Virus record (IMG/VR): IMGVR_UViG_3300005912_000454 | Location: 1-23,405 of that record | DNA: 23,405 nucleotides | Reading direction: 5' to 3' (one strand) | From: a virus | Part shown: positions 8,045 to 22,566 of the stretch, piece by piece | Position numbering within the stretch: position 1 is the first letter of the stretch | How the letters are laid out: every line of letters begins with the position of its first letter | The notes under the pieces: model-generated | Told to the model about the DNA's origin: nothing | What the model saw: the letters and a program-made list of their open reading frames with translations, nothing else | The model's database searches: none | Translations under genes and position numbers: made by a program

Positions 8045-8383
8045 GTAACAAGAACACATCCAGTAACAACAGAATATGACGTGGAATTTAACGGAAACTT
8101 ACAATTTTTCACAGTTACATATCCATCTGACGTAAGTGGTAAAACAGGACCTGAATCAACACAAGCGGCTGTTCATAGAACAATCGGCGATATTGCAACA
8201 GTTATTGCAGTTGGTGCTTTAGGTAACTCAAGTACTGAACAAACATTTGCAGTTGAAGGAATTGGCGGCGATATAGTTGTAAAAGCGGCACTTGACACAG
8301 CATTTGATGCATTAGGTACAGTAGACTCAATTAACTGTGCTAACGTTACAGTAACACTAAAGCCTTTATACATAGCAGTTTAA
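8036..8383 (+). CDS. Small Thr/Val-rich protein, tandem paralog 2
   Basis: A 115-residue paralog of the upstream protein, similar along its whole length, with more acidic and aromatic residues in the first half (E-Y-D-V-E-F and F-F-T-V-T-Y). The shared core includes G-P-E-(G/S)-(A/T)-Q-A-A-V and Q-T-F-A-V-E-x-I-x-G-D. The gene has its own late promoter, RBS and terminator, the same architecture as copy 1, so the pair arose by duplication of a complete unit and then diverged. It is probably an abundant late virion-associated protein, but no family is recognised. Confidence 0.75.
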   Translation: MATVTRTHPVTTEYDVEFNGNLQFFTVTYPSDVSGKTGPESTQAAVHRTIGDIATVIAVGALGNSSTEQTFAVEGIGGDIVVKAALDTAFDALGTVDSINCANVTVTLKPLYIAV

Positions 8384-8399
8384 GTATAATACTTTTGAA

Positions 8400-8428
8400 A
8401 AACCCTGCTTTTTTAAGTGGGGTTTTTT
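8400..8428 (+). terminator. Rho-independent terminator after paralog 2
   Basis: The same stem as at 7888-7916 (AAACCCTGCTT / AAGTGGGGTTT), here with a four-base loop and a longer T run, 16 bases after the stop codon of the second small-protein gene. Confidence 0.88.
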
Positions 8429-8446
8429 ATTGGCTTAAATATCATT

Positions 8447-8689
8447 ATGAATCCAAAACAAGAAGACTGGATATACGAAAGTCCTGATCGTGGTGAGACT
8501 GTATTTAGGCGTAAGTTCGGTGACAAGCATTTCCAGCGAGAAGAAATAACACCCGACAAGCCATTAACTATCTATAATGACTTTATGTGGATATACAGAA
8601 AAGACTGGGATGACCTAGCTAATAAACATCCAGCAGTAAAAGAACTTCTTGGGAAACTAATCACAATTACAAAGTTAGTAGACGAATGA
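8447..8689 (+). CDS. Small hypothetical phage protein
   Basis: An 80-residue acidic, Trp/Tyr-rich protein. The open frame extends back to 8417, but that region is the terminator hairpin, so I chose the ATG at 8447 (M-N-P-K-Q-E-D-W). A possible TAAATA late-promoter core lies just upstream (8435-8441), leaving little room for an RBS. The stop overlaps the next ATG (ATGA at 8686), so the two genes are coupled. No domain, signal peptide or membrane segment is visible. Confidence 0.6.
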   Translation: MNPKQEDWIYESPDRGETVFRRKFGDKHFQREEITPDKPLTIYNDFMWIYRKDWDDLANKHPAVKELLGKLITITKLVDE

Positions 8690-9114
8690 TAGTCTGTTGG
8701 ACATTGGCAGATATTACTAATACAGGAGTTACTCGTATGCCTAGTAATAGTCCAAGTATAAAATTACGTAATCAGCAACGTAATTACGAAACATTTTTGC
8801 AATTAATAAGTATGCGTGGTCAGCCTACAGTTATAATAGCTCCAACAATGTTGACTAATAGAGATATTACTACACTACCCTTTGGCAAAACTTATCTTCA
8901 GGACCTGGGATTCAAATACAATGTGTGGATGTTTGCATTTGAAAGTGAGCAAGAAAAAGTATTTGATAATACAAGTGGACAATTAGGAGCGTTAATGTCT
9001 GATTTTAATGGTTGTCCTATCATAATTGGTATGGACGAAAATGCTAAAATAACTAATACAATCAATACGATAGGTGAAAAGTGTAATACCTTTTTCCTAC
9101 ACCAAAACCAGTAA
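8686..9114 (+). CDS. Hypothetical phage protein
   Basis: A 142-residue protein joined to the preceding gene by an ATGA overlap. It shows alternating strands and helices (P-T-V-I-I-A-P-T-M-L and C-P-I-I-I-G-M-D-E-N), suggesting a compact alpha/beta fold. There are no catalytic residues that I can assign and no signal peptide. A late promoter follows immediately after its stop codon, so it ends a two-gene unit. The family is not recognised. Confidence 0.6.
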   Translation: MIVCWTLADITNTGVTRMPSNSPSIKLRNQQRNYETFLQLISMRGQPTVIIAPTMLTNRDITTLPFGKTYLQDLGFKYNVWMFAFESEQEKVFDNTSGQLGALMSDFNGCPIIIGMDENAKITNTINTIGEKCNTFFLHQNQ

Positions 9115-9118
9115 CGAT

Positions 9119-9127
9119 GATAAATAA
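9119..9127 (+). promoter_or_regulatory. T4-type late promoter with a ~100-base leader
   Basis: GATAAATAA just after the stop codon at 9114 matches the late-promoter core. The 9128-9227 segment before the next ATG contains no gene that I can detect; GGAA lies about ten bases before the ATG at 9228. Confidence 0.55.
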
Positions 9128-9227
9128 ACGCAAAGCATCACAGAACGAACACAAAGACTAGGCACATTAAGGCTCATTACCAACCCACTAGATTCAGTGA
9201 TAGAAACCTATTGATGGAATTTATAAA

Positions 9228-9506
9228 ATGAGTGCTGTAAAAATTGAAAAAGAAAACCTAGAAGCTCACGTGGAATTGTGTGCAGAGAGGTATAACGCAT
9301 TGGAAGATAAACTCGACAACGTTGAGAGAAAAGTTAGTTCACTAGAACTAGTTGTTAATGAAATCAAAGAAATGATTACACATAACAATAATTCACGACA
9401 AAAACAATTAATCAAATATAGTGTAACCATAATCGGTTCGCTAATAGTATTAGTAGGATGGATGGCGGCAAACTATATGTTACCTTACATCTTTACTGCT
9501 GTATAA
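9228..9506 (+). CDS. XhlA-like coiled-coil membrane protein
   Basis: A 92-residue protein. Residues 1-60 form a charged heptad-rich coiled coil, and residues ~63-88 form one hydrophobic transmembrane segment, leaving a very short C-terminal tail. This architecture (soluble coiled coil, then a single membrane helix) resembles the haemolysin XhlA family, which in Bacillus prophages works with a holin and amidase in lysis. No lysis genes are adjacent, so a membrane-tether or holin-accessory role is only suggested by architecture. A dedicated late promoter lies upstream. Confidence 0.55.
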   Translation: MSAVKIEKENLEAHVELCAERYNALEDKLDNVERKVSSLELVVNEIKEMITHNNNSRQKQLIKYSVTIIGSLIVLVGWMAANYMLPYIFTAV

Positions 9507-9514
9507 TCGTGACT

Positions 9515-9979
9515 ATGGCAACTTTAACATTTGATAAATTTAACAGTCTTGCCAAGCAGAGTCTTGCATCAGTATCTAAAAATATAATTGTAAAAAAACA
9601 AAACACATACGAAGTATTTGGAGAGTTTAGAATAATTAAAGATGAATATGGTTTTGCTGTCCACCGTAATGGAAATGAAGTTGCATCTTTTCTTTCATCA
9701 CGCAATGCTCTTAGCTATTGTATATTTCAAAAATACTTTCGTTATGAGGATGCTGGCTTATTAGAAAGATTAGACGGTAGATTACAGTCAAAGATATTTG
9801 ATATTGAGGTAGCAAAAAATATTTTGACTAACTCAGCAGACCAATTAAAGAGATTCACAGCTTTAGCCAGAGTTGAAATATACATTGATGACACAAAGGT
9901 GATTAAAGAACAAATCAATGATGTTGTCAACATGGCTAAATACTTCCAACAAAGGGAATTAAACAATGAAGTTAACTGA
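9515..9979 (+). CDS. Hypothetical phage protein
   Basis: The frame is open from 9458, but that start lies inside the upstream membrane protein. The ATG at 9515, eight bases after that gene's stop, gives a sensible N terminus (M-A-T-L-T-F-D-K-F) and a 154-residue product. The first half is beta-rich (Y-E-V-F-G-E-F-R-I-I); the second half is helical and charged. The gene overlaps the following one by 14 bases. No catalytic motif or membrane segment is visible. The location among late genes suggests a structural or assembly role. Confidence 0.6.
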   Translation: MATLTFDKFNSLAKQSLASVSKNIIVKKQNTYEVFGEFRIIKDEYGFAVHRNGNEVASFLSSRNALSYCIFQKYFRYEDAGLLERLDGRLQSKIFDIEVAKNILTNSADQLKRFTALARVEIYIDDTKVIKEQINDVVNMAKYFQQRELNNEVN

Positions 9980-10799
9980 TATACAACAAAAGACAGACGC
10001 TAAATTTATTAATCGCGTGATGAATGCACACTTTGAATCAAAAGTAAATGTTTCTGCATTGAAAGAAAATACTGCACGTACAATGCTTACTAAAGTTAGA
10101 GCGTTAATCAAAGAAACTAAAGGTACACACAAGTTCCATACCAGTGAGAAAAGCCCAGCTTATCTACAACTGCTTATGATGGAACAATCACTAACTGCTC
10201 AATTACAAGAGTATGGTGCTGACAGTGCTAGGTATCAGGGTGGAACTGCTTATTCTGCAAATACTACACCATCAGTGATGACAGACATTAAAGATGAAGA
10301 TGAAGACGAAGACGAAGATGAAGACGAAATGGAAGAAGCATGTGGATCTTCACATAAAAAGAAAAAAATGAAAGAGTCTAAATTAACAGAATCAGAAGTT
10401 GAAACAGCACAGGTTGTTTTAGCCGCACAAGATATGTTAGATAAAGTACAAAGCATGTTAGAAGATGTTGCAGATATGCAATTTAAAGATCTTCCTAATC
10501 TTGTCGAAATGATGAGAAATGAAGTTGGTGTTAATGAAGCACAGGCTTACCTAGATTCACAAACAGCAACACTATCTAGTTTAGTAACAACATTAGAACA
10601 AGCTAAAGCCGCCATGACAACAACAATGGCACCGTTAACGGGTGACCAAGCATTAACACCAGATGAGTTTGCTACAGAACCAGACTTAGATGCAGGTGTT
10701 GACAACGATACACCACCAGATTCTGGCATTGAAGCAGATAGCGATGGTGACATCACTGAACCAGATTTAGAACCAGACCTAGGCAGAGAAAGAAGATAA
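9966..10799 (+). CDS. Acidic structural-type phage protein
   Basis: A 277-residue protein. The N-terminal ~100 residues are helical and basic. They are followed by an uninterrupted Asp/Glu tract (about residues 110-125), then a Lys cluster (H-K-K-K-K-M-K), a helical middle with coiled-coil character (about 140-220) and a Pro/Asp/Thr-rich acidic tail. Strong charge segregation and helicity are typical of prohead core or scaffold proteins, and similar proteins are annotated as structural in marine T4-like phages. This is a resemblance, not a family assignment. A purine-rich GGGAA precedes the ATG within the overlap with the upstream gene. Confidence 0.55.
   Translation: MKLTDIQQKTDAKFINRVMNAHFESKVNVSALKENTARTMLTKVRALIKETKGTHKFHTSEKSPAYLQLLMMEQSLTAQLQEYGADSARYQGGTAYSANTTPSVMTDIKDEDEDEDEDEDEMEEACGSSHKKKKMKESKLTESEVETAQVVLAAQDMLDKVQSMLEDVADMQFKDLPNLVEMMRNEVGVNEAQAYLDSQTATLSSLVTTLEQAKAAMTTTMAPLTGDQALTPDEFATEPDLDAGVDNDTPPDSGIEADSDGDITEPDLEPDLGRERR
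10294..10341 (+). repeat. Low-complexity GAAGAY codon tract encoding a poly-Asp/Glu segment
   Basis: Tandem six-base units (GAAGAT/GAAGAC) encode alternating Asp and Glu within the acidic structural-type protein. Replication slippage could change tract length in frame. Confidence 0.8.
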
Positions 10800-11123
10800 A
10801 TGAAACTGTTTGAGGTCAGTGGACCCGCACTAGAACTAGCCTCTTTAGTACAGTACCTAATAGGTAAGAGTGACGAGCTTAATACTAAACCTCAAATTAA
10901 AACAGATACATTCATTGATATGGCAAGACAAACAGGTATAAACATATCGTTTAGTAATTTGCAAGCACTATCAAATCAAAACCCTTTAAAAAATATGATC
11001 ACAAATCTAAATCAAGACACTATTGAATTTGGAATTGCAAATGGTGATCAAAAAATGCCTGTTGATAAAGCAAGAGATGTTGTTAAACAAATGGCAAAAA
11101 GATCACTACGCAAAAGAAATTAG
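10800..11123 (+). CDS. Small hypothetical phage protein
   Basis: A 107-residue helical protein with a basic C terminus. Its ATG abuts the upstream stop with no gap, suggesting coupling to the acidic structural-type gene. It begins M-K-L-F-E-V-S-G, which is close to an L-x-E prohead-protease site but has Val at the position after Glu. No known domain is recognised. A terminator follows 28 bases after the stop, so this gene closes the late structural-type operon that starts at 9119. Confidence 0.6.
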   Translation: MKLFEVSGPALELASLVQYLIGKSDELNTKPQIKTDTFIDMARQTGINISFSNLQALSNQNPLKNMITNLNQDTIEFGIANGDQKMPVDKARDVVKQMAKRSLRKRN

Positions 11124-11151
11124 ATAACTACTATTATATGCTCCAAGCAAG

Positions 11152-11182
11152 AACCCATTCTCTAGCCAGACTGGGTTTTTTT
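11152..11182 (+). terminator. Rho-independent terminator before the Fe-S/FDH operon
   Basis: AACCCA (11152-11157) pairs with TGGGTT (11172-11177), followed by a T run to 11182. It separates the structural-type operon from the metabolic operon, whose promoter begins six bases downstream. Confidence 0.8.
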
Positions 11183-11187
11183 ATGTC

Positions 11188-11219
11188 TTGACATTAGCTT
11201 ATAAATAGTGTAGTATAAT
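11188..11219 (+). promoter_or_regulatory. Sigma70-like early promoter upstream of iscU
   Basis: A perfect TTGACA (11188-11193) is followed 17 bases later by TAGTAT (11211-11216) and three bases further by a perfect TATAAT (11214-11219, 20-base spacing). Either could serve as -10. The promoter at 15409 shares TTGACATTA and a GTGTA at the -10, supporting a common early promoter type read by host sigma70 polymerase. Confidence 0.7.
11200..11207 (+). promoter_or_regulatory. T4-type late promoter embedded in the early promoter
   Basis: TATAAATA, an exact match to the T4 late-promoter consensus, lies between the -35 and -10 elements of the sigma70-like promoter. It would start transcripts near 11213, upstream of iscU. 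The operon may therefore be read both early and late. Confidence 0.55.
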
Positions 11220-11243
11220 AATTGTATACAGGAGAAGTTTATT

Positions 11244-11627
11244 ATGGCTTATAGCGAAAAGGTATTAGATCATTACGAGAACCCAAGAAACGTAGGTTCT
11301 TTTGATAAAACTGACCCAACAGTTGGAACTGGCATGGTTGGTGCACCTGCTTGTGGTGATGTTATGAAACTACAAATTAAAGTAGAAGATGGAGTTATTA
11401 CAGATGCGAAGTTCAAAACGTATGGATGTGGTTCTGCGATTGCAAGTTCAAGCCTTGTTACAGAAATGCTCAAAGGCAAAACAATCGAGCAAGCACAAGA
11501 AATTAAAAATATGGAGATTGTTGAAGAACTATCTTTACCACCGGTAAAGATCCATTGCTCAGTACTAGCAGAAGATGCTATTAAAAGTGCATTAGCAGAT
11601 TATAAGAGTAAACAAGAAACCGCATAA
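11244..11627 (+). CDS. iscU: Fe-S cluster scaffold protein IscU
   Basis: A 127-residue protein that closely matches bacterial IscU (128 aa), the scaffold on which [2Fe-2S] clusters are built from cysteine-derived sulfur. The ligand residues are all present: C37 with D39 (A-C-G-D), C62 (Y-G-C-G-S), and H104-C105. The L-P-P-V-K motif (98-102), recognised by the HscA chaperone, is intact, which marks this as ISC-type rather than SUF-type. AGGAG lies nine bases before the ATG. No cysteine desulfurase is encoded in the window, so it presumably draws on host IscS. It is the first gene of a metabolic operon, and its TAA overlaps the next ATG (TAATG). Confidence 0.95.
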   Translation: MAYSEKVLDHYENPRNVGSFDKTDPTVGTGMVGAPACGDVMKLQIKVEDGVITDAKFKTYGCGSAIASSSLVTEMLKGKTIEQAQEIKNMEIVEELSLPPVKIHCSVLAEDAIKSALADYKSKQETA

Positions 11628-11797
11628 TGGAAGAAACTCAATCGCCCTGCGTGTCGATATGTGCTATGGACAACGGTATATGTGTGGGGTGTGGGAGAAC
11701 ATCTAAGGAAGTTAGTGAGTGGCTTAACTATACAGATGAACAACGTATAACTATAATGGAAAGATTGGAGAAAGAACAAAATGATATCTTTAACTGA
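11627..11797 (+). CDS. DUF1289 family cysteine-rich small protein
   Basis: A 56-residue frame beginning at the TAATG junction with iscU. It carries S-P-C-V-S-I-C, then C-V-G-C-G-R-T, giving four cysteines (C8, C12, C19, C22) in the C-x3-C-x6-C-x2-C arrangement of DUF1289, followed by the usual E-x-x-x-W helix. Members are thought to be metal or Fe-S binding, but their role is unknown. Its last codons and stop lie inside a copy of the first six codons of iscA, the key to the fdh insertion story. GGAG within this gene (near 11766) would once have served as the iscA RBS. Confidence 0.85.
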   Translation: MEETQSPCVSICAMDNGICVGCGRTSKEVSEWLNYTDEQRITIMERLEKEQNDIFN

Positions 11798-11798
11798 T
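11779..11798 (+). repeat. 20-bp direct repeat, left copy (DUF1289 end / relic iscA start)
   Basis: These 20 bases are identical to 13011-13030. Here they encode the last residues and stop of the DUF1289 protein in one frame and M-I-S-L-T-D, the iscA N terminus, in another. The two copies bracket the formate dehydrogenase gene. Confidence 0.95.
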
Positions 11799-11819
11799 GA
11801 AAATGGAGAAATAAAATGA
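11781..11819 (+). pseudogene. Relic 5' end of iscA left by fdh insertion
   Basis: The frame from the ATG at 11781 reads M-I-S-L-T-D-E-N-G-E-I-K and stops at TGA 11817-11819. Its first six codons are identical in DNA to the start of the intact iscA at 13013. A GGAG sits 12 bases upstream, a better RBS than the one before the present iscA start. The relic stop overlaps the fdh start as ATGA, so it might now act as a coupling mini-ORF. The relic interpretation is inference. Confidence 0.65.
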
Positions 11820-13012
11820 AAGTGTTATGTATATTATATGATGACCCTAAAGGTGGAATGCCTGAGAGTTATCCATTAAGCAATTTACCTAAAATAGACA
11901 AATATCCTGATGGCATGACATTGCCAAATCCTCAAGGACGAGATTTTAAACCTGGAGAATTATTAGGTTGTGTATCTGGTGAGTTAGGTCTTAGAAAGTT
12001 TTTAGAAGATGCTGGTCATACATTAGTCGTTACGTCTGACAAAGATGGCAAAGGATGTACGGCAGATAAAGAATTAGTTGATGCAGATATTGTTATATCT
12101 CAACCATTTTGGCCATATTATGTAACAAGAGAATTGATGGAAACTGCCCCGAATTTAAAGATGGCGATTACTGCCGGCATTGGTTCAGACCATGTTGACT
12201 TACAAGCCGCCATGGACCATAACATTGATGTTGTTGAAGTAACTTATTGTAACTCAAGGTCTGTTGCTGAACATATCATTATGCAGATTCTAGTTTTAGT
12301 AAGAGATTTTACTACTCAACATAAGATTGTTAATGATGGCGGTTGGCATATTGCTGATGCTGTTTCTAGGTCTTATGATGTAGAGGGTATGAATGTTGGT
12401 ACAATTGCGGCTGGTCGTATTGGTCTAGATGTATTAAGAAAGATGGAGGCATTTGATGTACATCTCCATTACTTTGATAAACATAGATTAAGTATAGAAC
12501 AAGAACAAAAGTTAAATCTTACATATCACGATTCAGTCGAATCAATGGTTGCAGTTTGTGATGTGATTAACATTAGTTGTCCTTTACATCCTGAAACTGA
12601 ACATCTGTTTGATGATGAGATGATTGCTAAATGTAAAAAAGGTGCTTATATAATTAATACTGCAAGAGGAAAGATTTGTGATAAAGATGCAATTGCTAGA
12701 GGTCTAGAATCAGGACATCTAAGTGGTTATGCTGGTGATGTATGGTTCCCACAACCTGCACCTAATGACCATGTTTGGAGGACAATGCCAAATCATGCAA
12801 TGACTCCTCATACATCTGGAACATCTCTATCTGCTCAGACTCGATATGCAGACGGAGTTAGAGAGATATTAGAGTGTGTATTCAATGAGGTTGATATCAG
12901 AGATGAATATCTAATTGTTCAGAACGGAGAATTGGCTGGTGTTGGTGCTCACTCTTACACTAAAGGAACTTCAACAGGCGGCTCAGAAGAAGCGGCAGAG
13001 TTCAAAAAGTAA
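11816..13012 (+). CDS. fdh: NAD-dependent formate dehydrogenase (metal-free, D-2-hydroxyacid dehydrogenase superfamily)
   Basis: A 398-residue protein, full length for bacterial NAD-FDH, which oxidises formate to CO2 with reduction of NAD+ to NADH in the cytoplasm. Numbering coincides with the Pseudomonas sp. 101 enzyme, and the known functional residues are all present: F98, I122, N146 (T-Y-C-N-S), the Rossmann loop A-A-G-R-I-G (198-203), D221 (H-Y-F-D-K, NAD rather than NADP preference), R284 (N-T-A-R-G-K), Q313 (W-F-P-Q-P) and H332 with S334-G335 (P-H-T-S-G). The C-terminal S-Y-T-K-G and G-G-S-E-E-A-A motifs are also kept. GGAG precedes the ATG. There is no frameshift or truncation. It sits between DUF1289 and iscA, flanked by a 20-bp direct repeat, and its base composition resembles phage DNA, unlike sufU-nfu. 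Confidence 0.96.
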   Translation: MKVLCILYDDPKGGMPESYPLSNLPKIDKYPDGMTLPNPQGRDFKPGELLGCVSGELGLRKFLEDAGHTLVVTSDKDGKGCTADKELVDADIVISQPFWPYYVTRELMETAPNLKMAITAGIGSDHVDLQAAMDHNIDVVEVTYCNSRSVAEHIIMQILVLVRDFTTQHKIVNDGGWHIADAVSRSYDVEGMNVGTIAAGRIGLDVLRKMEAFDVHLHYFDKHRLSIEQEQKLNLTYHDSVESMVAVCDVINISCPLHPETEHLFDDEMIAKCKKGAYIINTARGKICDKDAIARGLESGHLSGYAGDVWFPQPAPNDHVWRTMPNHAMTPHTSGTSLSAQTRYADGVREILECVFNEVDIRDEYLIVQNGELAGVGAHSYTKGTSTGGSEEAAEFKK

Positions 13013-13030
13013 ATGATATCTTTAACTGAT
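13011..13030 (+). repeat. 20-bp direct repeat, right copy (fdh stop / iscA start)
   Basis: Identical to 11779-11798. Here it contains the last two bases of the fdh stop codon and the first six codons of the functional iscA gene. Confidence 0.95.
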
Positions 13031-13333
13031 ATAGCGGCAGAGAAAGCTAGCAAAGCAATTACAAGCAGAGAAAATACTGTAGGGCTTCGTATTGGTGTAA
13101 AAACTACAGGGTGTTCAGGACTTGCTTACGTAATAGAGTTTGTTGACAGTATATTACCTGAAGACAATACGTACACTGACAAGGGTGTTACACTAATAAT
13201 AAATAAAAAAGATTTAACATACCTAGATGGCTTACAACTAGACTATCAGAAAAAAGGATTAAACGAAGGATATGAATTCATCAACCCAAATGAATCAGCA
13301 AGATGTGGATGCGGTGAAAGTTTCACGGTCTAA
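13013..13333 (+). CDS. iscA: A-type Fe-S carrier protein IscA/HesB
   Basis: A 106-residue protein, the usual IscA length (E. coli 107). The three conserved cysteines are present: C34 (T-G-C-S-G) and C98-G-C100 (R-C-G-C-G-E-S-F). A-type carriers bind iron or [2Fe-2S]/[4Fe-4S] clusters and pass them to apo-proteins after assembly on scaffolds such as IscU. The ATG directly abuts the fdh stop and lacks a strong RBS of its own, so translation is likely coupled to fdh. The first 18 bases of the gene also occur at 11781. The 3' end overlaps the downstream SGNH-like frame. Confidence 0.93.
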   Translation: MISLTDIAAEKASKAITSRENTVGLRIGVKTTGCSGLAYVIEFVDSILPEDNTYTDKGVTLIINKKDLTYLDGLQLDYQKKGLNEGYEFINPNESARCGCGESFTV

Positions 13334-14291
13334 TAGGCGACTGTTTACTTTTGGATGCAGTTTTACAAACTACCAATGGCCTACCTGGGCAGATATAGTA
13401 GGTCAGGAATTTAAAGAACACCAAAATTGGGGAGCAGTAGGAGGAGGTAATCTTTTTATACTCTGCTCACTCTTAGAAGCTATACAAAGAGAATCTATTA
13501 GTATTAACGACACTGTAATTGTAATGTGGTCATCTATAGGTAGAGAGGATAGATGGATCAAAGGAAGATGGGAAACTCCAGGTAGTATATATAATCAGCT
13601 TGTGTATCCCAAAGACTGGGTAGACAAATTTGCAGATCCAGATGGTTATTTAATACGTGACGCCGCACTGATATCTGCAGTTATGAATACCTTAGATAAC
13701 ATTAAGTGTGAATATTACATGTTAAGCATGTTACCGTTCAACATCGTCAATGACGCAGATCTTAATATCCTACAAAAAATAAAATCTAAGTTCAACTTAC
13801 TCAATGGTACTGAGAGACACAACACCATTGATTCAATAAGTGATACAAGTAAAGTATTAGAAATTTATCAAGATGTGTTTGATAGAATACGCCCATCTGT
13901 CTTTGAGACCATATTTGATAATGATTGGTATAGCAGGAAAGGATTTAAGTCCATGACATGGATAGAAACCAGTTATAGAGATTCTAAAAACACATGGGCC
14001 CAACACTGGCCTCCCTATGAAGATTTTATTAACAAAGATGTTGATGATAAAACGCTACACGAAATAAAACAAGTTTATGACTTTGACAACCTAGACCAAT
14101 TCTTAGAAGAAATTAAAAGATTTGAAAGTAGAAATGATCAGCACCCAACCCCCTTAGAGCATCTAGAATATCTAGATAGCGTATTACCAGAGATACTAAT
14201 TAGCCAAGAAACTAGAAGTTGGACTGAAAAAAAACATCTAGATGCCGAAAAGGGAATTACCTGGGAAACAAAAAAAGTGGAGAGGCTATAG
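13272..14291 (+). CDS. SGNH-like hydrolase-fold protein
   Basis: A 339-residue frame; the start is uncertain. The ATG at 13272 overlaps iscA by 62 bases and has GAAGGA too close in front; alternatives are ATG 13290 and GTG 13314. SGNH-type blocks are visible: F-G-C-S-F with the candidate nucleophile S30, the Gly block W-G-A-V-G-G-G-N (53-60), the strand V-I-V-M-W-S-S-I-G-R, and Q-H-P-T-P-L-E-H (290-297) with candidate catalytic His near the end. It is the most complete of four such proteins in the window. Likely roles are esterase or glycan deacylase, possibly virion-associated. It sits inside the Fe-S gene run with no obvious link to it. Confidence 0.65.
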   Translation: MNSSTQMNQQDVDAVKVSRSNRRLFTFGCSFTNYQWPTWADIVGQEFKEHQNWGAVGGGNLFILCSLLEAIQRESISINDTVIVMWSSIGREDRWIKGRWETPGSIYNQLVYPKDWVDKFADPDGYLIRDAALISAVMNTLDNIKCEYYMLSMLPFNIVNDADLNILQKIKSKFNLLNGTERHNTIDSISDTSKVLEIYQDVFDRIRPSVFETIFDNDWYSRKGFKSMTWIETSYRDSKNTWAQHWPPYEDFINKDVDDKTLHEIKQVYDFDNLDQFLEEIKRFESRNDQHPTPLEHLEYLDSVLPEILISQETRSWTEKKHLDAEKGITWETKKVERL

Positions 14292-14314
14292 CACCGTGCA
14301 AAAGGTATTTACGA

Positions 14315-14800
14315 ATGGCTGACTATAAATCTCTCTATCAAGAGGTCATCCTCGATCACAACAAGAAGCCGCGTAATTACGGTACCCTCGACCAAGCAAG
14401 TCACTCTGCGGCAGGCCATAACCCGCTGTGTGGTGATCACATTAAAGTGGCACTCAATCTTGAACACGAGTGCATATCCTGTATAGTATTTCAGGGAGAA
14501 TCATGTGCGATCTGCAAAGCGTCAGCGTCAATGATGACGACAGCCATTAAAGGTAAGTCCCGTACTGACGCAGAAGTTCTGATTCAGGAATTTCTTGCCA
14601 TGGCTACTGGAAAACTCAGCCTTGACAAACTAAATCACATTGGACGGCTTGCGGTGTTTGCAGGTGTGTGCGACTTGCCTACACGTGTTAAGTGTGCAAT
14701 ACTGCCGTGGCACACGCTTCATGCCGCATTTAACTCAATTAACAGCACATCGACTGAAGCAGATGCAGACCCGATGCACGCCACAATAGGCAACGCATGA
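14315..14800 (+). CDS. sufU: SUF-type Fe-S scaffold / sulfur acceptor SufU
   Basis: A 161-residue IscU-fold protein of the SufU subtype. Zinc/cluster ligands are visible: C39 with D41 (P-L-C-G-D), C64 (G-E-S-C-A-I-C) and C127 (R-V-K-C-A-I-L-P-W-H-T-L). The extra segment between the second and third ligand and the absence of L-P-P-V-K separate it from the IscU at 11244. In Gram-positive bacteria SufU accepts sulfur from SufS; no SufS is present here. Base composition is visibly richer in G and C than the surrounding phage genes, as is the following nfu, suggesting recent joint acquisition. The Ser/Thr/Asp C-terminal tail is not part of the core fold. Confidence 0.85.
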   Translation: MADYKSLYQEVILDHNKKPRNYGTLDQASHSAAGHNPLCGDHIKVALNLEHECISCIVFQGESCAICKASASMMTTAIKGKSRTDAEVLIQEFLAMATGKLSLDKLNHIGRLAVFAGVCDLPTRVKCAILPWHTLHAAFNSINSTSTEADADPMHATIGNA

Positions 14801-14828
14801 TGTAATGCCGAATTTTTAGGGGGTTAAG

Positions 14829-15383
14829 ATGCCGAAAATAGCAGAAATTGAAGACACACCCAATCCGAACGCGGTGAAGTTTATTCTTAAAGAACCGCTG
14901 ACTTGGGGGATAACACACTCGTACGACAACGCCGAGCAGGCGCAGGATGATACCCTTGCCTCCACACTATTCGATATCGAACACGTGACCAATGTGTTTT
15001 ACATCGATCGCTGGCTCACGGTCACACAGGACGGTGAAGCCGACTGGCCAGAATTAGTTCGTAAAGTCGCCGTGCCGATTCGAGCCGCACCAGCGGCAGA
15101 GGAGCAATCTGCTACCACTGTTGCGGCCTCTGCTGATACTGACCTAAGCCCTGAGGATCAGCGGCGCCTTGATGTGATCAACGTGATGTTGGACGAGCAG
15201 ATCCGTCCTTCGCTACAAGGTGATGGCGGCGATCTAAAAATACTTGATCTCAACGGTAACCAGCTAACAGTACACTACCAAGGTGCATGCGGAACCTGTC
15301 CGTCCTCAATAGCAGGAACGTTGCGTGGCATCGAGAATCTACTTCGATCAATTGAACCTGATATCGAACTTGTAGCTGTTTAA
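14829..15383 (+). CDS. nfu: Nfu-type Fe-S carrier (Nfu N-terminal domain plus NifU C-terminal domain)
   Basis: A 184-residue two-domain protein. Residues ~5-85 are the Nfu N-terminal domain, beginning with the characteristic T-P-N-P-N-A-V-K-F. A Pro/Ala/Thr-rich linker follows, and residues ~110-180 are the NifU C-terminal domain with G-D-G-G-D-L and the cluster-binding C154-G-T-C157 (C-x2-C). This arrangement is typical of alphaproteobacterial and mitochondrial Nfu, which carry [4Fe-4S] clusters to target enzymes. AGGGGG before the ATG gives a strong RBS. The gene shares the raised GC content and codon choice (GCG, CTC, CGC) of sufU just upstream, so the two probably travelled together. Confidence 0.92.
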   Translation: MPKIAEIEDTPNPNAVKFILKEPLTWGITHSYDNAEQAQDDTLASTLFDIEHVTNVFYIDRWLTVTQDGEADWPELVRKVAVPIRAAPAAEEQSATTVAASADTDLSPEDQRRLDVINVMLDEQIRPSLQGDGGDLKILDLNGNQLTVHYQGACGTCPSSIAGTLRGIENLLRSIEPDIELVAV

Positions 15384-15408
15384 GTTATTAACTCTGACAA
15401 AATAATAG

Positions 15409-15436
15409 TTGACATTATTAAAAAATCGTGTAAAAT
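15409..15436 (+). promoter_or_regulatory. Sigma70-like early promoter
   Basis: TTGACA (15409-15414) and TAAAAT (15431-15436) are separated by 16 bases. The element lies in the 108-base gap after nfu and drives the nuclease gene at 15492. Its TTGACATTA and GTGTA resemble the promoter before iscU. Confidence 0.7.
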
Positions 15437-15491
15437 TGTATTAAATAGAACTTATCCTACGTAGTAACACATTAAAAATCAAGGACACTGC

Positions 15492-16175
15492 ATGATAACA
15501 AATAAATTTGATTATAAAGAGTTAACTAGAACAACCACAGAACATCAACGGTTGTATCAATGTCCAGATGGTAATGCTGTTCCTAGTGTAACAACTATCT
15601 TAGATAAAACAAAATCAGCAGAAAAAACTAAAGCATTAGCAAATTGGCGTAGGAGCATAGGTGAAGCAAAAGCAACTGAAATAGTTACTGAAGCCGCCAA
15701 CAGAGGAACACGTATGCACACTTACTTAGAAAATTATGTTCTAGGTGAAGAACTAAAAGAGACAGTGTCTAATCCTTATGCTCAACAGAGTCTAGACATG
15801 GCTAAGATTGTTATTAAAGAAGGTCTATCAAATGTAGATGAGTATTGGGGGACTGAAGTTGCTTTATACTTTCCGGAAATTTATGCAGGTACAACTGACC
15901 TAGTAGGTGTACACAAAGGTGACGATGCAATACTTGATTTTAAACAATCAAACAAACCAAAGAAGCGTGAATGGATTGAAGATTACTTTCTTCAACTAGT
16001 AGCCTACGCAGAAGCACACAACGAAGTGTACGGAACTAATATACGCAAAGGTGTAGTACTGATGTGTACCAAGGACTATAAATACCAAGAGTTCATAACA
16101 GAAGGCGTAGAATGGGATATGTGGAAACAGAAATGGTGGGACCGGGTAGAGCAATACTATAAAAAACATAGATGA
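15492..16175 (+). CDS. PD-(D/E)XK superfamily exonuclease
   Basis: A 227-residue nuclease-like protein. Motifs in order: R-G-T-R-M-H (71-76), E122 (T-E-V-A-L-Y), the metal-binding D136 (A-G-T-T-D-L-V), D149-F-K151 (I-L-D-F-K, the D-x-K signature) and Q168-L-V-A-Y172 (the Q-x3-Y helix). The pattern resembles RecB/Cas4/MGME1-type exonucleases found in phages. It lacks the four-cysteine Fe-S cluster of Cas4, having only two cysteines. The likely role is DNA processing in replication or recombination, or host DNA degradation. AAGGA lies six bases before the ATG, and an early promoter precedes it. Confidence 0.85.
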   Translation: MITNKFDYKELTRTTTEHQRLYQCPDGNAVPSVTTILDKTKSAEKTKALANWRRSIGEAKATEIVTEAANRGTRMHTYLENYVLGEELKETVSNPYAQQSLDMAKIVIKEGLSNVDEYWGTEVALYFPEIYAGTTDLVGVHKGDDAILDFKQSNKPKKREWIEDYFLQLVAYAEAHNEVYGTNIRKGVVLMCTKDYKYQEFITEGVEWDMWKQKWWDRVEQYYKKHR

Positions 16176-16696
16176 TTAAGTTTGCATTTGGGTGTAGTCA
16201 CACTGCCGGAGTTGGTGTAGAATTACATGAGGCGTTTCCTAATCTTCTTAATGCAACTAACTACGGAGTTGAAGGAATCAGTGCTAACTTTCTTGCCAGA
16301 CATCTAATAGAAAAAGTACAAGAACAAAAGCCAGATGTAATTTATATTCTTTGGCCTGATTGGTCCCGCTTTGAATATATAGATAACGACGGTAATACAC
16401 AACAGTCACTTCCTACAGATACTAATCGAATTCATTTTATGGAAACTGCTACTGACGATTGGTTAAAGAGCAATTTTAAAAAAGTTGTTGATAGCGTGCA
16501 TACCTATTGCGTAGATAACAAAATTACGTTGATAGATGCAACACTGTATGATCTTATACCGTTTATTAATCATGCAGACAAATGGCCCGTATCTAAATTA
16601 GGACATCACTATAGCGAAATTTGGCATCAATGGGTAGCTGACATTTTTAATAACGCATTACAAAATAATACAAGATTTCCACTTAATAATGAATAA
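16172..16696 (+). CDS. Compact SGNH-like protein
   Basis: A 174-residue protein with an ATGA overlap with the nuclease gene. It has the nucleophile-type motif F-G-C-S-H (candidate S9), a Gly block (N-Y-G-V-E-G-I-S-A-N), the strand I-Y-I-L-W-P-D-W-S-R-F, and a C-terminal G-H-H-Y-S-E-I-W-H (144-152) in the position of the catalytic His block. It is the shortest of the four SGNH-like proteins and looks like a minimal catalytic core. There is no signal peptide. Function and substrate are unknown; a virion or cell-surface carbohydrate esterase is one possibility. Confidence 0.6.
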   Translation: MIKFAFGCSHTAGVGVELHEAFPNLLNATNYGVEGISANFLARHLIEKVQEQKPDVIYILWPDWSRFEYIDNDGNTQQSLPTDTNRIHFMETATDDWLKSNFKKVVDSVHTYCVDNKITLIDATLYDLIPFINHADKWPVSKLGHHYSEIWHQWVADIFNNALQNNTRFPLNNE

Positions 16697-16702
16697 ACAT
16701 AA

Positions 16703-17062
16703 ATGATTGACATACTATTTGCTCTCGTCGTTAAACACTGTATAATTGATTTAGGATTACAGAGCCAACTCCTTGCCAACAAAACACATAAAAAAGTGTT
16801 TTATTTTGGATGTCACGAACATTATATACATCATGCTATAGGAACATTTGTAGCACTGTATTTTTTTACAGATATATCAATAGTACTATTAGCAAGTGTT
16901 ATAGATTACCTAGCACACTGGCATATCGACTTTGCAAAACATAATCTAAATAATTGGTTAGAATATACTAGAAAAGATAAACTTTTTTGGTGGGTAGCAG
17001 TAGTTGATCAGTTGTTACATTTCTTAACTTACTATCTTTTGGTCCTCTATGTTATTTCCTAG
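16703..17062 (+). CDS. DUF3307-like integral membrane protein
   Basis: A 119-residue protein with about four hydrophobic segments and conserved-looking charged residues inside or next to them: K-H-C-I-I-D-L-G-L-Q near the start, H-E-H-Y-I-H-H-A, L-A-H-W-H-I-D, and V-D-Q-L-L-H-F at the end. This pattern of membrane-embedded H and D residues resembles DUF3307 family proteins, whose function is unknown. The gene follows the SGNH-like gene by six bases. A late promoter overlaps its stop codon. A metal-dependent membrane role is possible but unsupported. Confidence 0.55.
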   Translation: MIDILFALVVKHCIIDLGLQSQLLANKTHKKVFYFGCHEHYIHHAIGTFVALYFFTDISIVLLASVIDYLAHWHIDFAKHNLNNWLEYTRKDKLFWWVAVVDQLLHFLTYYLLVLYVIS

Positions 17063-17069
17063 ATAAATA
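17062..17069 (+). promoter_or_regulatory. T4-type late promoter for the tail spike gene
   Basis: GATAAATA, a seven-of-eight match to TATAAATA, overlaps the stop codon of the membrane protein gene and lies 28 bases before the tail spike ATG. Confidence 0.6.
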
Positions 17070-17097
17070 TACTGATAACAATGGAACTTTAAAAAAG

Positions 17098-18675
17098 ATG
17101 GCTACAGTACAAATCTCAAGAATACAGCATAGACAAGGTCTAGCAGAAAACTTACCTCAACTAGCAGGTGGTGAATTAGGCTGGAGTATAGATAATAGAC
17201 AGTTATATATTGGTAACGGAACCATTGCAAATGGTGCACCGGTAGTTGGTAACACAGAGATACTAACTCAATTCTCAGATATCGTTCAACTAGCAGATAC
17301 TTACACATATAAAGGTGATGCCGCAGGATACACATCCAAGACAGGAGCATTAACAAGTACACCTGTAACAAGAACATTACAAGGTAAATTAGATGACTTT
17401 GTATCAGTAAAAGACTTTGGCGCAGTAGGTGACGGAGTTACAAATGATACACTTGCGATTAATAGAGCATTGTATGAAATATTCTGTCGTGAAGTAAACC
17501 CAGAAGTACGAAGAGGCTTGTATTTTCCAGCAGGAACATATCTAACAAATGATACAATATTAATTCCACCTTATGCTAAGATATGGGGAGAAGGAATGCA
17601 CTCAACAGTGATCAAACTAGATGTTGATCCATCGAGTACTATTGCAACATATATGGCTAGAACAACAGACAGTCTACAACAAACAGGAATTAACATTGGT
17701 ACTAACTCAGCAATAACACCTAAGAATGTTGAAATATCATCACTGACATTTGAAGCCGCTGAGATTACTAATATCTTTTTAGTAGAATCAATTGATCAAA
17801 TGTATTTTGATTCAGTAGGTTTTAAAGGAACACTAACATCCGCAGATTTAAATGTAGCTACAGATGATGCAAGTTGTGTACGAGTTAATGGAACAAGTGC
17901 AAACATTTCACGTGCAGTAACATTTGATAAATGTGCATTTACTAATATGACTTACGCATTTAAAATTGATGAACGTTGTCAAGGATGGACAGTAAGTAAC
18001 TCAAAATTTGAAACACTATACAATGGTGTAGTTTTAGGTACTTCACTAGTTGACGGTGGACCAGTCGGCTTCCGTACAGTACATAACTTCTTTGATGAAA
18101 TTTATGGTTCAGCAATTGTTTATGATCTAGTTAGCACTTGTGCTACTGCTCATAACATATTCTTAGATAATTGTGGTAAACAATTCGGTGCAAGTCCACA
18201 GGTACCAGTAATTGATTTTAATACTAATAATAATATATCAATTGGTGATATGTTTGAACGTAGTGATGCTGATAGTTTAACATTCCCAAGAATTGATGTA
18301 GGCACAACAACATCAATTGGTTTAGACAATACTAAACAAATTCAGTTAGGTAGTTTTGTTCGTGAAAGTGGTAAAACTGCTACACTAACAGATAATACAG
18401 CAGTTGCGGCATCAGTATTCACAGTGGCATCTGGAGATATAACAGCTTGGTCAATGGATTATACTATAACAAGAGGATCTAACATAAGACATGGTAAAAT
18501 GGCAGTACGCAATGCGTCTTCTCCGAGTTACTCAGATGAATATGTTGAAGATGCATCAACAGGTGTTACCTTAACAGTTGTTAATACATCAGGCACAACA
18601 TATGCTTTGCAATATGTATCAACTAGTACAGGTAGTAACGCTACATTAACTTACAGTCTAACACAGTTAGGATAG
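17098..18675 (+). CDS. Tail fibre/spike with Mtd-like N-terminal domain and pectate-lyase-type beta helix
   Basis: A 525-residue structural protein. Residues ~4-45 (I-S-R-I-Q-H-R-Q-G then A-G-G-E-L-G-W and Q-L-Y-I-G-N-G-T) match the N-terminal repeat of phage fibres related to the major tropism determinant N domain, used for virion attachment. From residue ~100, D-F-V-S-V-K-D-F-G-A-V-G-D-G-V-T-N-D introduces a pectate-lyase superfamily right-handed beta helix to about residue 390. The C-terminal ~130 residues are Thr/Ser/Gly-rich beta structure, perhaps receptor-binding. It is likely involved in host recognition and possibly surface polysaccharide degradation. Its own late promoter fits virion expression. 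Confidence 0.85.
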   Translation: MATVQISRIQHRQGLAENLPQLAGGELGWSIDNRQLYIGNGTIANGAPVVGNTEILTQFSDIVQLADTYTYKGDAAGYTSKTGALTSTPVTRTLQGKLDDFVSVKDFGAVGDGVTNDTLAINRALYEIFCREVNPEVRRGLYFPAGTYLTNDTILIPPYAKIWGEGMHSTVIKLDVDPSSTIATYMARTTDSLQQTGINIGTNSAITPKNVEISSLTFEAAEITNIFLVESIDQMYFDSVGFKGTLTSADLNVATDDASCVRVNGTSANISRAVTFDKCAFTNMTYAFKIDERCQGWTVSNSKFETLYNGVVLGTSLVDGGPVGFRTVHNFFDEIYGSAIVYDLVSTCATAHNIFLDNCGKQFGASPQVPVIDFNTNNNISIGDMFERSDADSLTFPRIDVGTTTSIGLDNTKQIQLGSFVRESGKTATLTDNTAVAASVFTVASGDITAWSMDYTITRGSNIRHGKMAVRNASSPSYSDEYVEDASTGVTLTVVNTSGTTYALQYVSTSTGSNATLTYSLTQLG

Positions 18676-18676
18676 T

Positions 18677-19114
18677 ATGTGGCCCGTCGGCTATGAAGAA
18701 CGGCTCCAATCCTGGGTTCAACTCAGACAAGATTGTGAAAACAAATCCCTTAAAGCACAACTTAACCAAATAGCAGGATGGTGGGGTCATGCTCCTCGAG
18801 TAAAAAATGTATTACATTGGCAGGATAAAACAACCTGGCCAACCCCCTGGGAACTTTTGGCAGATAATAACTTCGATGAGCTTGCTATTTCCTTAGGAAT
18901 GTCATATACTTTATTGATGCTAGAAAGTAATAATACCACAGTTGAGATTGTACAAGCAAAGGACATCTCCGCTAACGAGTATAATTTAGTTATGGTTGAC
19001 AATCAGAAATATATACTTAATTATGATCCGTGGTTAGCAATAAATAGCGAGCAGGTAGATTTTAAAATATTAAATACAGTTGGCAGTGATCAACTATTAC
19101 AAAAAATAGGATAG
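18677..19114 (+). CDS. Hypothetical protein next to the tail spike
   Basis: A 145-residue Trp-rich protein whose ATG follows the tail spike stop after a single base, so the two are probably cotranslated. It starts M-W-P-V-G-Y and contains W-P-T-P-W-E-L-L-A-D and a beta-rich second half (Y-N-L-V-M-V-D-N-Q-K-Y-I-L-N-Y). No signal peptide, membrane segment or known motif is visible. Position suggests a tail accessory or chaperone role, but this is inferred from context only. Confidence 0.6.
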   Translation: MWPVGYEERLQSWVQLRQDCENKSLKAQLNQIAGWWGHAPRVKNVLHWQDKTTWPTPWELLADNNFDELAISLGMSYTLLMLESNNTTVEIVQAKDISANEYNLVMVDNQKYILNYDPWLAINSEQVDFKILNTVGSDQLLQKIG

Positions 19115-19116
19115 AG

Positions 19117-21420
19117 ATGGCAGAGATTATAGTTACTAAAAGAGACGGAAGTAAAGAACCTTTAAACATCGAAAAACTGCACAAAGTTGTAATGTGGGCA
19201 TGTGAAGGTACCACAGGTGTATCAGCCAGTGAAGTTGAGATTAAAAGTCACTTACAATTTTACAATGGTATTAAATCGTCAGACATTCAGGAAACTGTTA
19301 TTAAGTCTGCCGCTGATTTAATAACAGAAGATACTCCTAACTATCAACATGTTGCTGGTAGATTAATTAGTTATCATATTCGTAAAGATGTATATGCACA
19401 GTTTGATCCTTGGCATATTACAAAATTAGTTAAACAAAATATTGAACTTGGTCTGTATGATCCTCATCTATTAGAAGATTACACAGAAGATGAATGGGAC
19501 CAAATTAATTCATATATTAAGCACAATCGTGATGAAATGCTAACGTATGTTGCTATGGAACAATTCCGTGGTAAGTACCTCGTACAAAATCGAGTTACAG
19601 GACAAATATACGAAAGCCCACAAATGACATATATGTTAATAGCAGTAACGTTATTTTCAACTTATGCAAGAAGCTCTAGATTACAATACGTTAAAGATTA
19701 TTATGACGCAATATCAACTCATCAGATAAGTTTACCTACTCCTGTAATGGCAGGCGTAAGAACTAGTCAACGACAGTTTAGTTCATGTGTACTAATTGAA
19801 ACAGATGACAGTTTAGATTCTATTAATGCCACAGCGGCGAGTATTGTTAGGTATGTGTCACAGAAAGCAGGTATTGGTGTAAATGCAGGTCGAATTAGAG
19901 CTATTAAAAGTCCTATTAGGAAAGGCGATGCTTACCATACTGGTGTTATCCCATTCTTTAAATTATTTCAGGCGGCAACACGATCGTGTTCACAAGGTGG
20001 GGTAAGGAATGGCGCGGCAACCTTGTACTATCCTATATGGCATTTAGAAGTAGAGGACTTATTAGTACTTAAAAACAACAAAGGTACAGATGATAATCGT
20101 GTTCGTCATATGGATTATGGTGTGCAGTTTAATAAATTAATGTATGAAAGATTGTTAGCAGGTGGAGACATAACGTTATTCTCACCACATGATGTTCCGG
20201 GTATGTATGATGCGTTCTTCCAAGATCAAGATAAGTTTAAAGAACTATATGAAACTGCAGAACGTAATACAAAAATTCGTAAGAAAACATTAAAAGCAAT
20301 TGATTTGTTTAGTTCATTTATACAAGAACGTAAAGATACAGGTAGGATATATTTACAAAATGTTGATCATGCTAACACACACGGGTCGTTTGACCCTAAA
20401 GTAGCACCAATTAGACAAAGTAACTTATGTTGCGAAATTAATTTACCAACCAAACCGTTAAACGATTTAAATGATCCCGATGGTGAAATAGCATTATGTA
20501 CATTAAGTGCTATTAATTGGGGTGCATTCAGAGCTCCGGAAGAGATGGAAAAGGCGTGCGGGCTTGCTGTGCGAGGATTAGACGCCCTTTTAACCTATCA
20601 GAACTATCCAGTACTAGCGGCCAGAATGGCTACAGAAAACAGGCGACCTTTAGGTGTAGGCATTATTAATTTGGCATATTGGTTAGCAAAGAATGACTTT
20701 ACATACAGTGATCCTGGTTGCTTACCTGAATTAGATCGATGGGCACAGCACTGGTCATATTACCTGATTAAAGCATCTGCAGACTTAGCAGAAGAATATG
20801 GTGCTTGTCCTAAATCAGATGAAACTAAATATCATCATGGTATATTACCGGTTGACACATATAAACGAGATGTCGACGAGCTAGTACCACACAAAGATCT
20901 AGTTGATTGGTCTGGATTGCGTAAGCAACTTAAGAAGACTGGTATACGTAACTCAACACTAATGGCACTAATGCCAGCAGAGACATCTGCACAAATTAGT
21001 AACTCAACAAACGGTGTAGAACCTCCACGTAGCTATATTAGTATTAAGCAAAGTAAACACGGAGCGTTAACACAAGTAGTACCTGAGTTTAGAAGATTGA
21101 AAAACAAATACGAACTATTGTGGGATCAGAAGTCTCCAATAGGGTATTTGAAGATAATGGCTGTACTCCAAAAATATATTGACCAAGGAATATCGGTAAA
21201 TACTTCTTACAATCCAGAGCATTATGAGGATGAAAAGATCCCAATGAGTGAGCTGTTACAACACGTTATTATGTTTTATAAATACGGTGGCAAGCAGTTA
21301 TACTACAACAACACACACGATGGTCAAGGCGAAATTGATATTGACCGTGATGTAAAAGATAGTGTCGAATTTAATGAAAGTGACCTGGATGATGCAGACT
21401 GCGATAGTTGTAAACTTTAA
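19117..21420 (+). CDS. nrdA: Class Ia ribonucleotide reductase, large subunit NrdA
   Basis: A 767-residue protein, near the length of E. coli NrdA (761), which reduces ribonucleoside diphosphates to deoxy forms. Active-site residues are present: C224 (F-S-S-C-V-L), N436-x-C438-x-E440 (S-N-L-C-C-E-I), the second redox cysteine C461 (C-T-L-S-A-I-N), and the radical-transfer tyrosines Y729-Y730 (Q-L-Y-Y-N-N-T). The C-terminal shuttle cysteines are C762-x2-C765. An N-terminal ATP cone (about 1-95) suggests retained overall activity control by ATP/dATP. There is no intron or frameshift. It is paired with nrdB downstream and supplies dNTPs for phage replication; reduction depends on thioredoxin or glutaredoxin. 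Confidence 0.96.
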   Translation: MAEIIVTKRDGSKEPLNIEKLHKVVMWACEGTTGVSASEVEIKSHLQFYNGIKSSDIQETVIKSAADLITEDTPNYQHVAGRLISYHIRKDVYAQFDPWHITKLVKQNIELGLYDPHLLEDYTEDEWDQINSYIKHNRDEMLTYVAMEQFRGKYLVQNRVTGQIYESPQMTYMLIAVTLFSTYARSSRLQYVKDYYDAISTHQISLPTPVMAGVRTSQRQFSSCVLIETDDSLDSINATAASIVRYVSQKAGIGVNAGRIRAIKSPIRKGDAYHTGVIPFFKLFQAATRSCSQGGVRNGAATLYYPIWHLEVEDLLVLKNNKGTDDNRVRHMDYGVQFNKLMYERLLAGGDITLFSPHDVPGMYDAFFQDQDKFKELYETAERNTKIRKKTLKAIDLFSSFIQERKDTGRIYLQNVDHANTHGSFDPKVAPIRQSNLCCEINLPTKPLNDLNDPDGEIALCTLSAINWGAFRAPEEMEKACGLAVRGLDALLTYQNYPVLAARMATENRRPLGVGIINLAYWLAKNDFTYSDPGCLPELDRWAQHWSYYLIKASADLAEEYGACPKSDETKYHHGILPVDTYKRDVDELVPHKDLVDWSGLRKQLKKTGIRNSTLMALMPAETSAQISNSTNGVEPPRSYISIKQSKHGALTQVVPEFRRLKNKYELLWDQKSPIGYLKIMAVLQKYIDQGISVNTSYNPEHYEDEKIPMSELLQHVIMFYKYGGKQLYYNNTHDGQGEIDIDRDVKDSVEFNESDLDDADCDSCKL

Positions 21421-21444
21421 ATAACCACAATAAGAATATACTAC

Positions 21445-22566
21445 ATGAGCGTTCTAAATACAAAAACAAATCATCTTAAGAGCCTAGCATTTCTTGACAA
21501 AAGCGGTGGCCGTGGCATACAAAGATATGATACCCTGAAATATAAACAGTTTGATAAATTAACTGATCGCCAGTTAGGTTTCTTTTGGCGGCCAGAAGAA
21601 GTAGATGTAATGCGTGATAGTAAAGACTTTAAAGATCTTACACCGTATGAACAACACATCTTTACTAGTAATCTGAAACGTCAAATACTGTTAGATAGTG
21701 TTCAAGGACGTTCACCTAACTTAGCCCTATTACCTCTTGTTAGTTTACCAGAGATCGAAACCTGGATTCAGACCTGGGCATTTAACGAAACAATTCATTC
21801 ACGTTCGTACACACACATTATACGTAATGTATTTGCTGACCCATCAAAAGTATTTGATGAAATGATGAACATTGAAGAAATAATTAATTGTGGAACTGAA
21901 GTTACTAGATATTATGACGACTTAATTGAATATGGATCTTGGTATAACTTACTAGGTGAAGGAGTTCATACAGTAAATGGTAAGAAAATTACAGTCGATC
22001 GTTACGAACTTAAGAAGAAACTATGGTTATGTATCAATTCAGTTAATGCGTTAGAAGGAATACGCTTTTATGTTTCATTTGCATGTTCGTGGGCATTTGC
22101 TGAACTTAAGAAAATGGAAGGCAATGCTAAAATTATTAAACTAATTGCACGTGACGAAAATGTACATTTAGCATCAACACAGCATATGTTAAAAATGTTA
22201 CCACAAGATGACAAAGACTATATTAAAATTAAAAAAGAATGTGAACAAGAAGTAGTTGATATATTTAGAACTGCTGTTGAACAAGAAGGAGCATGGGCTA
22301 GTTACTTGTTTAAAGATGGATCAATGATTGGTCTTAACGAAGAACTACTAAAAGACTATGTAGAATGGATAGCATCAAAACGTATGAGTAGTATAGGACT
22401 TCCTCAAATTTATAAAGGTGGTTCTAACCCTCTTCCGTGGACACAGAAATGGATAGCAGGTGGTGATGTACAGGTGGCCCCTCAGCAAACTCAAATATCC
22501 TCATACACAATTGGAGCTGTCAAACAAGATGTTTCTAAAGACACATTTAAAGGACTTAGTTTATAA
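21445..22566 (+). CDS. nrdB: Class Ia ribonucleotide reductase, radical-generating subunit NrdB
   Basis: A 373-residue diiron-tyrosyl radical subunit, almost exactly E. coli NrdB size. Metal ligands and radical residue fall at the E. coli positions: D84, E115, H118, the radical Y122 (E-T-I-H-S-R-S-Y), E204, E238 and H241. This is therefore a conventional tyrosyl-radical enzyme, not a Tyr-lacking Ic-type variant. It lies 24 bases after nrdA in the same operon. It needs iron, which may connect to the Fe-S gene set upstream, though its cofactor is not an Fe-S cluster. The stop directly abuts the following ORF start. Confidence 0.96.
   Translation: MSVLNTKTNHLKSLAFLDKSGGRGIQRYDTLKYKQFDKLTDRQLGFFWRPEEVDVMRDSKDFKDLTPYEQHIFTSNLKRQILLDSVQGRSPNLALLPLVSLPEIETWIQTWAFNETIHSRSYTHIIRNVFADPSKVFDEMMNIEEIINCGTEVTRYYDDLIEYGSWYNLLGEGVHTVNGKKITVDRYELKKKLWLCINSVNALEGIRFYVSFACSWAFAELKKMEGNAKIIKLIARDENVHLASTQHMLKMLPQDDKDYIKIKKECEQEVVDIFRTAVEQEGAWASYLFKDGSMIGLNEELLKDYVEWIASKRMSSIGLPQIYKGGSNPLPWTQKWIAGGDVQVAPQQTQISSYTIGAVKQDVSKDTFKGLSL

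Follow-up and report, generated by a model that had tools for sequence, protein, structure and literature searches.

Positions 14292–15383 of the window (the whole 23,405-base stretch analysed, an IMG/VR fragment of a tailed phage) are a fragment of a Burkholderiales suf operon, comprising the end of sufS and all of sufU and nfu. We consider it highly probable that this fragment was captured from a suf operon into the phage and that it plays an auxiliary metabolic role. The recipient is a T4-related/jumbo-like phage, with a helicase and an exonuclease that share 46–55% identity with those of PA5oct-like and Atu_ph07 jumbo phages. Because the operon of origin can be seen along with the two insert boundaries and the unoccupied site, this is an unusually clear snapshot of host-gene capture by a phage.

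Composition and edges of the insert

The genes of the region, from iscU through the exonuclease gene, all lie on the + strand. An intact iscU (11244–11627) is followed by genes encoding an NAD-dependent formate dehydrogenase (fdh, 11816–13012) and an IscA-type carrier (13013–13333). The upstream phage flank of the insert is an ORF of 339 aa (13272–14291), which belongs to a small family of short SGNH-like proteins and has no Pfam match. The insert itself contains a 3' remnant of sufS (14292–14322), sufU (14315–14800, 161 aa) and nfu (14829–15383, 184 aa). An AT-rich spacer (15384–15491, 26% G+C, + strand) leads to the downstream phage flank, a PD-(D/E)XK-type exonuclease gene (15492–16175) assigned to phrog_298. 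Three related SGNH-like ORFs, with 26–28% identity, occur in the window (2845–3576, 13272–14291 and 16172–16696).

Region 14292–15383 is a sharp G+C island of foreign DNA. The richest 1,069-base sliding window starts at 14277 and has 49.9% G+C, whereas those clear of the island average 36.2% (s.d. 1.6%, maximum 40.0%). A two-boundary maximum-likelihood fit placed the segment at 14344–15333, with 50.6% versus 36.2% G+C and a log-likelihood gain of 41. The two genes have GC and GC3 values of 0.481 and 0.463 (sufU) and 0.510 and 0.486 (nfu); GC3 in the remaining genes of the window is 0.17–0.34, about 0.25 (SGNH2, 0.31). Corrected for amino-acid content, the excess over the expectation from phage synonymous codons corresponds to z = 7.0 for sufU and z = 8.8 for nfu. 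Directly behind nfu, at 15401–15500, G+C drops to 0.25. An earlier note on this DNA had described sufU–nfu as a G/C-rich island with the AT-rich pattern returning immediately past nfu, and had regarded iscU, iscA and fdh as adapted to phage composition; the large sliding-window deviation, the codon statistics and the phage-like GC3 of iscU (0.23), iscA (0.25) and fdh (0.22) bear out each of these points.

The edges of the insert can be placed precisely. It starts one base past the stop codon (14291) of the upstream phage gene, and the 23 bases that separate this codon from the sufU start correspond to the 3' end of a bacterial sufS gene. In-frame translation of the left edge gives TVQKVFT(NG*), the complete TVQKVFTNG* spanning 14293–14322 and running into the start of sufU. 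Of 76 bacterial loci, 61 have a SufS C-terminus of the form VQK[VIL]Fx ahead of sufU, and in genome G318, the closest neighbor of the phage pair, the sufS end reads ...IAGIRTVQKIFT. The insert thus represents a suf-operon segment made up of the last sufS codons, sufU and nfu. At the right edge, bacterial similarity stops at the nfu stop codon.

The earlier note had suggested looking for phages with the same flanks and no sufU–nfu, and four related contigs (L015, L016, L017 and L024) provide them: in each, the SGNH-like gene abuts the exonuclease gene. The L015 junction of these two genes reads GGCTATAATAAATGATAA. All 14 of the closest relatives whose sequence extends far enough upstream lack the pair. 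The suf fragment entered the phage between these two adjoining genes, with both reading frames left intact.

Consensus scans detected neither a promoter-like site immediately before sufU nor a terminator following nfu; a strong promoter-like site (TTGACA-16-TAAAAT, 15409–15436) sits behind nfu, in the spacer. Since no promoter was found in front of the pair, sufU and nfu are probably co-transcribed from the upstream phage genes, and the promoter-like sequence may re-start transcription at the exonuclease gene. In a second phage contig, L005, the spacer is identical at 106 of 108 bases while the coding DNA on either side shows about 6% divergence; thus, the 108-base spacer seems to be under selection.

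Bacterial source of sufU and nfu

The best relatives of Nfu in the genome collection are 53 loci, all betaproteobacterial or from unnamed proteobacteria, and sufU adjoins nfu in almost all betaproteobacterial loci retrieved. The best identities to betaproteobacterial homologs are 79% for SufU and 78% for Nfu. A Polaromonas locus (L118) has the order sufB end, sufC, sufD, sufS, sufU, glutaredoxin, nfu, and G318 has the order sufS–sufU–nfu. The phage fragment shares with the Burkholderiales operon, sufBCDS-U-(grx)-nfu, the order sufS end–sufU–nfu and 70–79% protein identity to its nearest members; unlike that operon, it has just two complete genes, sufU and nfu, retains no more than the final codons of sufS and lacks sufBCD. 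In a combined SufU+Nfu tree the phage pair lies within a 12-row Burkholderiales clade (support 100/91) with G318 as its neighbor (85/75), and the single-gene trees agree. Placement in bacterial trees, a check proposed by the earlier note, thus puts both proteins within Burkholderiales and not in an old phage clade.

A donor of high identity (above about 79%) was found neither in the genome-contig collection nor among 399 sampled genomes of Burkholderiales. Burkholderiales that carry the pair range in GC3 from 0.33 to above 0.9, some of them at 0.42–0.57, and because donor GC is not fixed, amelioration is unusable as a clock. A mid-GC donor and partial amelioration are indistinguishable here, and amelioration is neither shown nor excluded. 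The earlier claim of a recent acquisition from a higher-GC host thus stands in that the two genes were gained together from a bacterial lineage of higher GC, a conclusion supported by suf-operon synteny, tree position, the sufS 3' remnant and the empty sites in related phages; the GC3 of the donor could lie anywhere from mid to high. "Recent" holds only in a relative sense, as nfu already differs from the L005 copy at 34 of 552 nt and the exonuclease part at 10 of 172 nt, a similar rate.

Predicted roles of SufU and Nfu

SufU relays sulfur from SufS to the SufBCD scaffold; the role of Nfu is to ferry clusters to client proteins. The phage SufU scored 142.7 bits against TIGR01994 (Fe–S cluster assembly sulfur transfer protein; curated cut-off 92.5) and matched the solved Zn-dependent SufU 5xt5 (7.8e-26); its zinc/active-site residues Cys39, Asp41, Cys64 and Cys127 are invariant in the compared alignment. 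The phage Nfu contains Nfu_N (73.5 bits) and NifU (65.1 bits) domains, each with a Pfam gathering cut-off of 27, and in its CxxC motif at 154–157 both C154 and C157 are invariant in the alignment.

No sufS, sufB, sufC or sufD is encoded within the 23-kb fragment, and the phage pair would therefore rely on those of the host. The phage SufU would accept persulfide sulfur from host SufS and hand it to the host SufBCD scaffold, while the phage Nfu would deliver completed clusters to their client proteins, working alongside the older phage carriers IscU and IscA. Host-type metabolic genes of cellular origin flanked by phage genes are the hallmark of auxiliary metabolic genes, and sufU–nfu has these features; most likely, the two act as an auxiliary metabolic pair working with host SufS/SufBCD during infection. 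Since SufU has to be compatible with its SufS partner, a betaproteobacterium is the likely host of the phage, which offers a pointer to the host of an uncultured phage group. A possible Fe–S role for the neighboring exonuclease was also considered and rejected, as sequence inspection found too few cysteines for a Cas4-type cluster.

Morons of tailed phages are inserts of foreign composition between genes that adjoin in relatives. The sufU–nfu insert likewise deviates in composition and lies between genes adjacent in relatives, but a promoter or terminator of its own was not found in front of or inside it by consensus scan. Its capture is thus a new example of a known phage habit, with source and edges clear. 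An iscU and an A-type carrier in marine environmental viral genomes have been described as auxiliary metabolic genes (PMC5332604). Those genes and the present ones are alike as host-derived scaffold or carrier genes in phages, presumed to support Fe–S metabolism in infection; the marine genes are of ISC/A-type, with an IscU related to gammaproteobacterial homologs, whereas the window phage has a betaproteobacterial SUF pair (SufU and Nfu) beside IscU/IscA, with the edge of the donor operon visible. This suggests that phages top up the host SUF pathway as well as ISC. No phage sufU–nfu pair was found in published papers by a literature search, which is weak evidence given its limited coverage.

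Other viral copies and alternative explanations

A protein search for more viral copies turned up no more than the L005 copy, an end piece of 63 residues in L006 and unrelated copies in L190 and L189. In addition, a separate IMG/VR record is identical to the window over 8367–23380 (15 kb) and may stem from the same or a related sample. The independent phage contig L005 carries nfu, the spacer and the start of the exonuclease gene at 94% identity, and 25 of its 34 changes in nfu fall in synonymous codons. Among INPHARED phages, only distant homologs were found, the best SufU (from a Microcystis phage) at 50% identity and Nfu at 26% or less over most of its length.

Two of these contigs have arrangements of their own. 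In L005:33–1106 (IMGVR_UViG_3300027983_001080), nfu, the spacer and the first 57 codons of an exonuclease gene like that of the window continue in frame into the latter half of an iscA close to that of L009, and a complete, divergent exonuclease gene lies downstream. The segment is an illegitimate recombinant or a chimeric contig. In L190:6479–8570, part of a 289-kb contig (IMGVR_UViG_3300025502_001322), a full-length sufB (478 aa) adjoins nfu between phage genes; L189 holds a further large-phage nfu copy. The L190 Nfu is 56% identical to that of the window and groups with different bacteria; therefore, different pieces of suf operons have been taken by phages more than once.

Three other explanations of the insert were weighed. 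That sufU–nfu is passenger DNA, carried without benefit and heading for loss, would fit its lack of a recognizable promoter and its presence in only one phage lineage plus L005. The intact frames, the conserved active residues and the mostly synonymous differences between the two phage copies speak against this, and we judge it unlikely. Less probable is an old phage pair whose high G+C was kept by selection or codon needs and which was lost in relatives: at least three phage contigs besides this one do have nfu homologs (L005, L006 and L190), but the phage proteins are not monophyletic, the pair is absent from all close relatives, several with abutting flanks, and nothing would preserve a sufS remnant in an old insert. 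Slightly less probable still is an assembly artefact linking bacterial suf DNA to phage contigs. In its favor, the contig is metagenomic, nfu lies at or close to the break points of both the L005 and the L006 contig, and L005 has its odd exonuclease/iscA fusion. Against it, the left junction keeps a short sufS remnant abutting the phage stop codon with no long shared repeat, the identical 15-kb contig exists, and the right junction (nfu–spacer–exonuclease) recurs in a different phage contig at 94% identity, which a chance chimera would not yield twice.

Interrupted iscU genes in related phages

More surprising than the capture of sufU–nfu is the iscU of related phages, which is interrupted between the Gly38 and Asp39 codons in 54 viral contigs. 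Such interrupted genes lie in L195–L212, L256–L259, L261–L266, L269–L271, L273, L275–L280, L282, L284–L286, L289, L291–L295, L297, L299 and L302–L310; those of L020 and L023, close relatives of the window phage, are included. The inserts consist of a stop codon, 0–4 nt and GGN, with a total of 6, 7, 8, 9 or 10 nt, and each of the three stop codons and of the three reading frames occurs among them. Examples, with slashes at the insert ends, are GGA/TGAC GGA/GAC, GGC/TGAC GGC/GAT, GGA/TGACA GGT/GAC and GGT/TAGATA GGC/GAT. This rule fits 42 of 43 distinct sequences, the exception being L302; the scan pattern required neither the second GGN nor the Asp39 GAY. Both halves of the interrupted gene are under purifying selection (median dN/dS 0.09 and 0.08). 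The element was absent from 200 Burkholderiales genomes searched with a narrower pattern, and a literature search found it in no published paper. In L291, iscU has a 10-nt stop-containing insert as well as an intein-like insertion after the conserved Cys63 (YGC/FVGNTYVNTPTHSV...).

The only candidate mechanism to account for all insert lengths is a hop in which the ribosome leaves the Gly38 codon, skips the stop codon and lands on the next Gly codon. Its main rival is termination followed by re-initiation at a downstream ATG, against which the conserved GGN–GAY codons speak. Plain +1 frameshifting was rejected, as lengths 6, 8 and 9 do not fit, and stop-codon readthrough fails for lengths 7, 8 and 10; a conserved hairpin was rejected because it is not kept in all variants.

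Directly upstream of the interrupted gene lies an HNH-like ORF of 195–218 aa in 28 of the 41 cases with readable upstream DNA (for example, L195, L262, L264, L276, L284, L020 and L023) versus 0 of 21 intact iscU genes (Fisher p = 6e-8, an optimistic value since the sequences are related). Family matches of this ORF are weak (HNH_4, E 0.017; PHROG HNH families, E 0.0016–0.05). The pattern is as expected for a putative homing endonuclease whose target the insert would protect. In phage T4 gene 60, translation bypasses a 50-nt gap flanked by GGA codons, and this gap is believed to have given protection against a neighboring homing endonuclease (PMC5009743); the interrupted iscU, a candidate short bypass element of 6–10 nt, resembles it.

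History of the Fe–S gene region

The earlier note had envisaged two waves of Fe–S gene gain, which is too simple. Its division into an old iscU/iscA core and a later sufU–nfu addition holds: iscU and iscA are common to the phage clade, upstream of the exonuclease gene. Its placing of fdh with the core does not, as fdh is a later addition from the viral pool. It is missing at this place in every relative with both iscU and iscA, yet it occurs in 43 viral contigs at 84–100% identity, and the fdh–iscA segment (11789–13318) is 97.6% identical in L213, a phage with otherwise different genes. The history is therefore that of a core to which at least two additions, drawn from different pools, were later made, and of the three layers visible only sufU–nfu has bacterial composition. 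Since fdh is AT-rich and nonetheless a newcomer here, AT-rich does not mean old, and composition alone misleads on age.

Just behind the fdh–iscA segment in L213 (4973–7262) is a gene for a SegE-type GIY-YIG endonuclease, a possible driver of the fdh–iscA exchange. A tentative and rather doubtful account of the whole region is that the interval from iscU to the exonuclease gene is an exchange hotspot held open by homing-type endonucleases that attack iscU. Hop inserts would protect iscU in some relatives, and repair tracts would import genes such as fdh and those of the SGNH type and, on one occasion, the bacterial sufU–nfu fragment, giving a phage with both ISC and SUF carriers.

Elsewhere in the window, a GIY-YIG-type endonuclease-like ORF (22567–23403), with a match just below the Pfam cut-off, lies directly behind nrdB and is open at the window end. 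Positions 7511–7867 and 8036–8383 encode a tandem pair of small proteins that are 51% identical.
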